Assembly: GCA_003170035.1 (NCBI GenBank)
Contig: PMZX01000348.1
Coordinates: 24,471 to 34,480 of the forward strand
From: Myxococcales bacterium
GTDB lineage: Bacteria > Myxococcota_A > Polyangia > Fen-1088
DNA length: 10,010 bases
Reading direction: 5' to 3'
Shown: positions 4,743-5,074 of the stretch, one piece after another
Position numbering within the stretch: position 1 is the first letter of the stretch
How the letters are laid out: every line of letters starts with the position of its first letter
Notes under the pieces: generated by a model
Databases searched by the model: none
What the model was told of the DNA's origin: nothing
Seen by the model: only the letters and a program-made list of their open reading frames with translations
Program-made: the position numbers and the translations under genes

Positions 4743-5073
4743 CAAGACCGACCTCCTTCCGGAAGCCTGCCGCCAGCGTACCGCCGACGCGGGCCCCGAG
4801 TTTCACGTGACGAATCGTTCCTCAACTCGGGAGGTCATTCTTGGTCCTCGCCACACTTGAAGTCAATGACGATCGTAGCTGTGGACGAAAAAAGGTGCTG
4901 CTGGTGCCGCCTCTCGAAAACTCGTAGCTGGTTGAGTTACCGGCTGGATCGCGGCGGCGAGGGCGCGCGCGCAGCGCGCGGGCTGGGCAGGGTGGGCTGT
5001 CCGTCCCGAAGTCCCCGAAGGGGGAGCCGTCAATCCGGCCGTCCAACCAGCTACGAATTCTCGAAAGGCGGCA
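4743..5073. other. 331-bp gene-free region between the beta-barrel gene and pyrG
   Basis: No convincing protein gene is visible. Short open frames here are by-products of GC-rich sequence and of the inverted repeat, whose two arms happen to encode a similar peptide on opposite strands. Reading in the direction of transcription (minus strand), it contains a 171-bp long inverted repeat (4904-5074), a run of six T (4893-4888), and a weak promoter-like pair, TTGACT about 18 bp before AAGAAT. It then has an 8-bp stem hairpin (4795-4831) and the strong pyrG ribosome-binding site. The promoter reading is tentative. Confidence 0.6.
4795..4831 (-). promoter_or_regulatory. Leader hairpin upstream of pyrG
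   Basis: CCCGAGTT (4795-4802) and AACTCGGG (4824-4831) are perfect 8-bp inverse complements separated by 21 nt. The loop itself contains the small palindromes CACGTG and ACGAATCGT. The hairpin sits about 50-90 nt before the pyrG start, downstream of the weak promoter-like sequence, so it would be part of the leader RNA. There is no U-tract behind it, so it is not an ordinary intrinsic terminator or attenuator. It could be an RNA fold or a protein-binding dyad; the function is unknown. Confidence 0.45.
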
Positions 5074-5074
5074 C
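4904..5074 (-). repeat. 171-bp long inverted repeat / extended RNA hairpin
   Basis: Outer arms 4904-4935 and 5043-5074 match at 28 of 32 positions in inverted orientation, starting GTGCCGCC and ending near TAGCTGGTTG. All four differences would be G-U wobble pairs in a minus-strand transcript, giving 32 uninterrupted pairs, but would be A-C mismatches in a plus-strand transcript. After a small internal loop, an inner stem (4941-4955 with 5026-5041) continues with one mismatch and one bulged base. The apical part (4956-5025) includes CCC(UUCG)GGG, a C-UUCG-G tetraloop hairpin, and an alternating GC run. The arm begins at the last base of the beta-barrel gene's TAG stop. Six T follow 10 nt after the 3' arm on the minus strand. 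It could be a MITE-like element without a transposase, a structured RNA, or an elaborate 3' end and terminator. No target-site duplication was found. Confidence 0.75.

Follow-up and report, generated by a model that had tools for sequence, protein, structure and literature searches.

The window analysed here—the whole stretch of 10,010 nucleotides from the Myxococcales bacterium assembly GCA_003170035.1, contig PMZX01000348.1, positions 24,471 to 34,480—carries an extended inverted repeat between two protein genes. This raises the question of what such a structure is: an RNA, an element belonging to gene ends, or a piece of mobile DNA. We read it as a MITE-like, non-autonomous member of a transposable-element family that bears S23 genes in an uncultured myxobacterial genus, and we hold this reading with considerable confidence. 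What moves the family is a separate question, for which two answers are weighed below. Genomes are numbered G and loci L, with G000 being the genome of the window.

The inverted repeat and its borders

The arms of the inverted repeat (4900-4934 and 5044-5078, 35 nt each) are 89% complementary and enclose a spacer of 109 nt. Folded as RNA, the hairpin reaches -111.2 kcal/mol, whereas shuffled sequences average -77.5 kcal/mol (sd 4.19); this corresponds to a z of -8.04, and 0 of 200 shuffles fold as well. The extended inverted repeat of 171 bp described by the first-pass annotation is hence confirmed, with borders that differ from the 4904 to 5074 given there: the element proper reads TGCCGCC..GGCGGCA and is preceded by CTGG and trailed by CTAG, both outside it (Table 1), and position 5074 already belongs to the neighbouring gene, being the first base of the CTA that forms its TAG stop. 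Further details of that description held in part. The C-UUCG-G hairpin exists on the - strand, where the UUCG loop reads CCCCTTCGGGG, the + strand having CCCCGAAGGGG; the - strand is also the coding strand of both neighbouring genes. The inner "head" is a separate core repeat (around 4952-5029) that is found in other flanks too. The supposedly gene-free gap does lie between the CTP synthase gene and the gene at 5074-6213, but a mechanical open reading frame of 130 aa (4857-5249, + strand) spans the element and was rejected by the gene finder. The suggested Rfam scan returned no known RNA family at gathering score in the window. At its far end, the window encodes a DUF3160 protein (8147-10009; 1.5e-144).

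Table 1. Coordinates of the mini-element, its parts and its neighbours in the window.
Feature	Position	Strand	Description
Mobile mini-element (our reading)	4905..5073		169 bp, no predicted gene, two facing left-type ends (LE)
Left terminal arm	4905..4940	+	LE type, TGCCGCCTCTCGAAAACTCGTAGCTGGTTGAG..; right arm matches at 28/36 positions
Right terminal arm	5038..5073	-	LE type, inverted
Core repeat	4952..5029	+	Hairpins and G-rich tract; common to repeats with other flanks
G-tract GGGCTGGGCAGGGTGGG	4980..4996	+	Quadruplex-type pattern, as a pattern match only
CTGG	4901..4904		Probably the decayed left copy of the CTAG target
CTAG	5074..5077		Presumed target copy; CTA 5074-5076 forms the TAG stop codon of the gene on the - strand
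Neighbour gene ending at the element	5074..6213	-	Pfam: no match
CTP synthase gene, other side of the element	3063..4745	-	Pfam CTP_synth_N

Dispersed copies and empty sites

In its own genome, the 171-bp query has at least 47 matches, of which many are short (first-look candidates: 40 of 100 scored). All six other genomes of the genus contain strong matches, with best E values from 4.2e-41 to 7.9e-25. At E <= 0.001, 45 of the 97 genomes searched (its own included) give matches, the distant ones being mostly short and in the GC-rich part. A pattern for the core matches at least 107 stretches in named records—the 80 listed stem mainly from "Myxococcales bacterium fen_..." MAGs—and none in viral contigs. 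The end pattern together with CTAG, at up to three mismatches, is found 117 times in the seven genus genomes and not once in the reversed control. These searches, which had been proposed along with the first description, hence yield dispersed copies and exclude a single copy that is conserved nowhere.

The orthologous site differs between relatives. Where G000 has the 171-bp repeat, G004 carries a 217-bp version, G006 an arms-only remnant and G001 a core-less variant, and the site is empty in three of the six same-genus genomes (G002, G003 and G005). The window element thus combines terminal inverted repeats with a length of 169 bp—well below the limit of about 500 bp used for MITEs—without coding capacity, as no gene is predicted inside, and with dispersed copies that show presence/absence differences.

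The core repeat is modular and occurs at 167 places in 216 loci (duplicates removed) within varied flanks. The window flank belongs to type A, with its own ends. The same core stands within type B flanks, represented by 52 rows (for example L143, L138 and L129); some of these rows add a second, inverted core-like module and some end in CTAG. Core repeats also lie in frame inside two open reading frames (L158:1691-4600 and L111:4554-6431), which we take to be DNA polymerase I-like and peptidase/hydrolase-like, respectively, and add low-complexity peptide stretches to them.

Element ends and the CTAG target

An exact CTAG precedes 36 of 75 arms, GTAG 9, CTGG 4 and ATAG 3, as counted in the loci without L295-L346; the background amounts to 713 CTAG in 721,148 bases of 93 loci. 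A set of 21 short elements (102-248 bp) was obtained from 25 rows after taking out four, of which L206 was mis-set and L131, L151 and L008 were false; two of the 21, L205 and L208, are orthologous. Nine of these elements show CTAG at both ends, seven at one end and five at neither. Typed against two consensus ends, 11 of the 21 combine LE with a right-type end (RE), 6 have one end that is untypable, and 4—among them the window copy—have LE on both sides.

The clearest view of the target is offered by the large element L286, which stands between two CTAGs where the same flanks in G004 and G006 have one. This clean 4-bp duplication is the only one among the large-element sites. The target CTAG at this site supplies the TAG stop codon for the right-hand gene and, by reading, directly follows the TAG of a left-hand frame. 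Of the other genomes, G003 has here a short element with similar ends and no core, and the site is rearranged in G000, G002 and G005. Next to L247, the right flank CTAG-ATCTTCC is single in G000, G002, G003 and G004 and absent from G005, and the left flanks differ. In the case of L140, a short element, G005 shows a single CTAG at the end of the left flank, with the right flank aligning only from base 33. The window copy itself is bordered by CTAG on just one side, and where relatives have no element the sequence reads TCAGCG or TCAACG, so that this site does not show the duplication.

Long members bear S23 genes and cargo

The large members of the family measure 2-4.5 kb and have long terminal repeats, each bearing a 23S-rRNA-IVP/S23 gene (PF05635), with variable cargo between them. 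In G001:C36, a pair of LE ends in inverted orientation spans about 2 kb. Between these ends come, in order, a core, a truncated copy of S23, the cargo, a complete S23 gene and a second core. Searching the genus for PF05635 gave 29 rows in seven genomes, 22 of which form 11 inverted pairs; in the pairs examined (L288 being cut by its contig and L284 on one side), inverted repeats of 257 to 682 bp carry S23. LE arm, core and S23 occur together in L247, L285 and L286 and at the single-S23 locus L290. By BLAST, L284 shows an LE arm and no core, and L287 and L288 show neither arm nor core. A second S23 subfamily, starting with MKRF (L278-L283 and L289), has other ends, with neither LE arm nor core and with no target duplication readable from them. 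The link from S23 to the mini-elements is hence made by four elements in which arm and core are both present and by L284, in which only the arm is.

The terminal repeats of the MKRF subfamily are 90.7-93.8% identical within an element and up to 95.5% between elements, so identity within is not higher; those of the other subfamily reach 92.0-96.4% within an element as opposed to at most 90.4% between elements. L278 and L282, from G005 and G003, occupy one site with the same flanks and the same S23-bearing repeats, and their interiors have no BLASTN match to each other—a possible cassette exchange at one site in two species.

S23 is under purifying selection with a dN/dS of about 0.1. Expressed as a ratio of means, the values are 0.11 (45 pairs, 10 copies) and 0.087 (55 pairs, 11 copies) for the two subfamilies, computed from 21 copies picked as full-length, that is, excluding truncated, contig-cut and some other copies. 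Inner stops are present in 0 of the 29 PF05635 rows. One S23 of each subfamily matches TIGR02436, the four helix bundle protein, and the MKRF type matches PDB 2gsc at E 1.4e-5. Passages of earlier work describe S23/IVP proteins as having a solved structure and as resembling Avd of diversity-generating retroelements (PMC10053308), place 18 23S_rRNA_IVP genes in cas loci (PMC3936711), call the role of rRNA intervening sequences little understood (PMC4990558) and still term S23/IVP proteins uncharacterised (PMC11270868). Among the open-access PMC papers listed by our searches, we found nothing on S23-bearing mobile elements outside rRNA.

The cargo is clearly restriction- or defence-like in four elements. 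Among eight interior genes scanned with Pfam, the L286 gene matches Mrr_cat/Mrr_N, the L284 gene GmrSD_N/Mrr_N/HEPN_Swt1, that of L280 AAA_21 and that of L285 DUF5655; L282, of the MKRF type, has an AlbA_2 match below the cut-off besides an IS1 transposase, and the one gene scanned from each of L247 and L279 has no match. PADLOC, applied to nine interior genes, assigns HEC-01A (L280), PDC-S18 (L285), HEC-05/type IV restriction-type (L284) and PDC-S02/type IV restriction-type (L286), besides a partial mad2 match (L289), a weak match (L279:3181-3834) and none for three of the nine. The Mrr-type, GmrSD-type, HEC-01A and PDC-S18 cargo of the four elements suggests a further carrier of anti-phage genes.

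Across the class, PF05635 is found at E <= 1e-6 in 62 of 144 genomes, those of the genus itself counted in. G036, from another family, has seven convergent S23 pairs in repeats of about 1 kb that are 83-90% alike (L329-L335). In L333, a long hairpin lies ahead of each S23 gene, and (GGCACT)n-like hexanucleotide arrays flank most of the five G036 copies whose ends were inspected. G131 (L336-L337) likewise has convergent S23 pairs within dispersed repeats about 1 kb long. In G015 (L301 and others), seven of the nine PF05635 matches listed contain in-frame TAG codons, mostly one each.

Origin of the window copy

Dispersed copies, empty sites and the CTAG duplication at a larger element with like ends support the "non-autonomous mobile element" that the first-pass annotation had offered as one of three possibilities. 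Since LE ends stand on both of its sides, as in the large elements, the window copy probably arose by internal loss of the part with S23 and cargo. It would have been inserted at a CTAG where the gene at 5074-6213 terminates, the factor that moves the large members presumably acting on it in trans. Hereby, the hairpin would represent two transposon ends folding back and not a selected RNA, although within a transcript it would still form a strong stem, for example for RNase III.

Candidates for the mover

An ordinary MITE system might account for the movement: a DDE transposase of an insertion sequence would act in trans on the short copies and on the elements with S23 and cargo alike, S23 being a passenger or a regulator. 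We regard this as a serious possibility, if somewhat less than probable. The insertion sequence would be one with a CTAG-like target, of the IS5 or IS481 type. The elements bear DDE-like marks: their terminal repeats measure about 25-35 bp, left and right ends are distinguishable in 11 of 21 short elements, and there is the 4-bp duplication. DDE_Tnp_1, the one family covered by the DDE search of the genus, is encoded in five of the seven genomes—drafts of 77-93% completeness, in which multicopy transposase genes are easily missed. It is absent, however, from G000 and from G002, which has 25 end matches, and around the nine DDE_Tnp_1 loci LE, RE or core appear as 10-16-nt matches only. In the lists of end matches, inward-facing pairs more than 1 kb apart occur only twice: G001:C36 encloses S23, and in G002:C267 the right-hand arm is part of a separate 237-bp element (L117), with no transposase among the genes between, by eye. 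One cargo gene each of the LE-ended L247, L284, L285 and L286 was identified as something other than a transposase or had no match. In sum, no transposase was recognised between LE/RE-type ends in the interiors scanned, which cover part of those in these draft genomes.

Among the genes seen in the large members, S23 alone is common to them, which makes it the first candidate mobility factor. A bolder reading, less likely than not, has S23 proteins as drivers of, or a requirement for, mobility in a new transposable-element class that works without a known transposase. The class, equally conjectural as to its scope, might be defined by long terminal inverted repeats with S23 at each end, exchangeable cargo including defence genes, CTAG targets and ORF-less mini-copies. 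Elements in which S23 is the only shared gene seen here, together with an exact 4-bp duplication at one site, would make a mobility role of S23 directly testable. If S23 drives movement, the paired S23 genes of other myxobacterial families would be further members of the class.

RNA structure and gene ends

Alternatively, the hairpin could be a cis-acting RNA element of 3′ ends—a terminator, an RNase III site or a stability hairpin—kept for its RNA structure, which we consider unlikely. Besides the very stable fold, its position speaks for it: the hairpin lies right behind the stop codon of a - strand gene, and 19 of 58 arms start exactly at a predicted ORF stop (coding score >8, offset -3), three of these 19 being orthologues of the window site; 13 of the 58 have no nearby stop. 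CTAGs flanked by arms are at stops in 20 of 69 cases, others in 67 of 644 (Fisher p 5.8e-5, with a loose arm test), and for non-coding CTAGs only the numbers are 20 of 52 and 67 of 337 (p 0.004). This excess may result from the CTAG target plus selection, and it leaves room for selection on, or a preference for, gene ends. The "genome-wide 3′-end element" of the first-pass annotation hence retains the association with stops, which may have that other source.

The structure itself argues less for an RNA. RNAalifold was run on 45 core sequences, made up of the window copy and distinct cores of two types (30 of 83 from one, 14 of 22 from the other), and predicts 13 pairs, three of which are changed on both sides; the covariation term contributes only -0.49 of -14.19. 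The core is conserved mainly as sequence, with hardly any covariation. Coevolution between arms was looked for and not found: arms match their own partner at 23.3 of 36 positions and the arms of other elements at 25.0 (21 elements), or 22.2 and 22.9 for all 25 rows, and are thus not tuned to each other. There is no terminator-like site with a U-tract, and the hairpin is missing from the same 3′ end in three relatives. The "structured non-coding RNA" therefore finds little support in covariation or in the fit between arms. That the element is a repeat of the REP/BIME type, dispersed by a RAYT (Y1 transposase), is highly improbable: the short palindromes at gene ends and a GTAG within the arm recall such repeats, but Y1_Tnp has no match in the own genome (77% complete) and matches in 5 of 14 control genomes, no local foot hairpin is seen by eye behind the GTAG, and L286 shows a 4-bp duplication, which is not known to be a mark of single-strand Y1 transposition.

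Comparison with known systems

REP/BIME repeats with their RAYTs share with the elements described here the palindromic repeats close to gene ends; the latter differ by their CTAG ends, with no REP foot seen and no Y1 transposase in the own genome. Much closer are bacterial MITEs, which are short and ORF-less, have terminal inverted repeats and a short target duplication, and occur in many copies, often by genes. Most of this is found here as well, and the duplication is clean at the large L286, the window copy having CTGG and CTAG; the difference lies in the long relatives, which carry S23 genes in long terminal inverted repeats plus cargo and in the scanned part of which no transposase was recognised. 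Composite transposons and defence-cargo elements have their cargo between two inverted copies of a unit. Inverted unit pairs likewise flank exchangeable cargo in the present family, restriction- or defence-like in four elements, but the repeated unit encodes a four-helix-bundle protein instead of a transposase.

As far as described in passages of PMC4990558 and PMC11270868, rRNA intervening sequences with S23/IVP resemble the present family in that complementary arms may enclose S23 and that forms with and without an ORF exist. On the contrary, the elements described here lie by protein genes at CTAG and not in an rRNA helix, and they have S23 inside each terminal repeat, plus cargo genes. The window copy itself is intergenic between protein genes and its arms enclose no S23, whereas those of its long relatives do. 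If S23 drives movement, rRNA intervening sequences would be one specialised branch of a class of S23 transposable elements.
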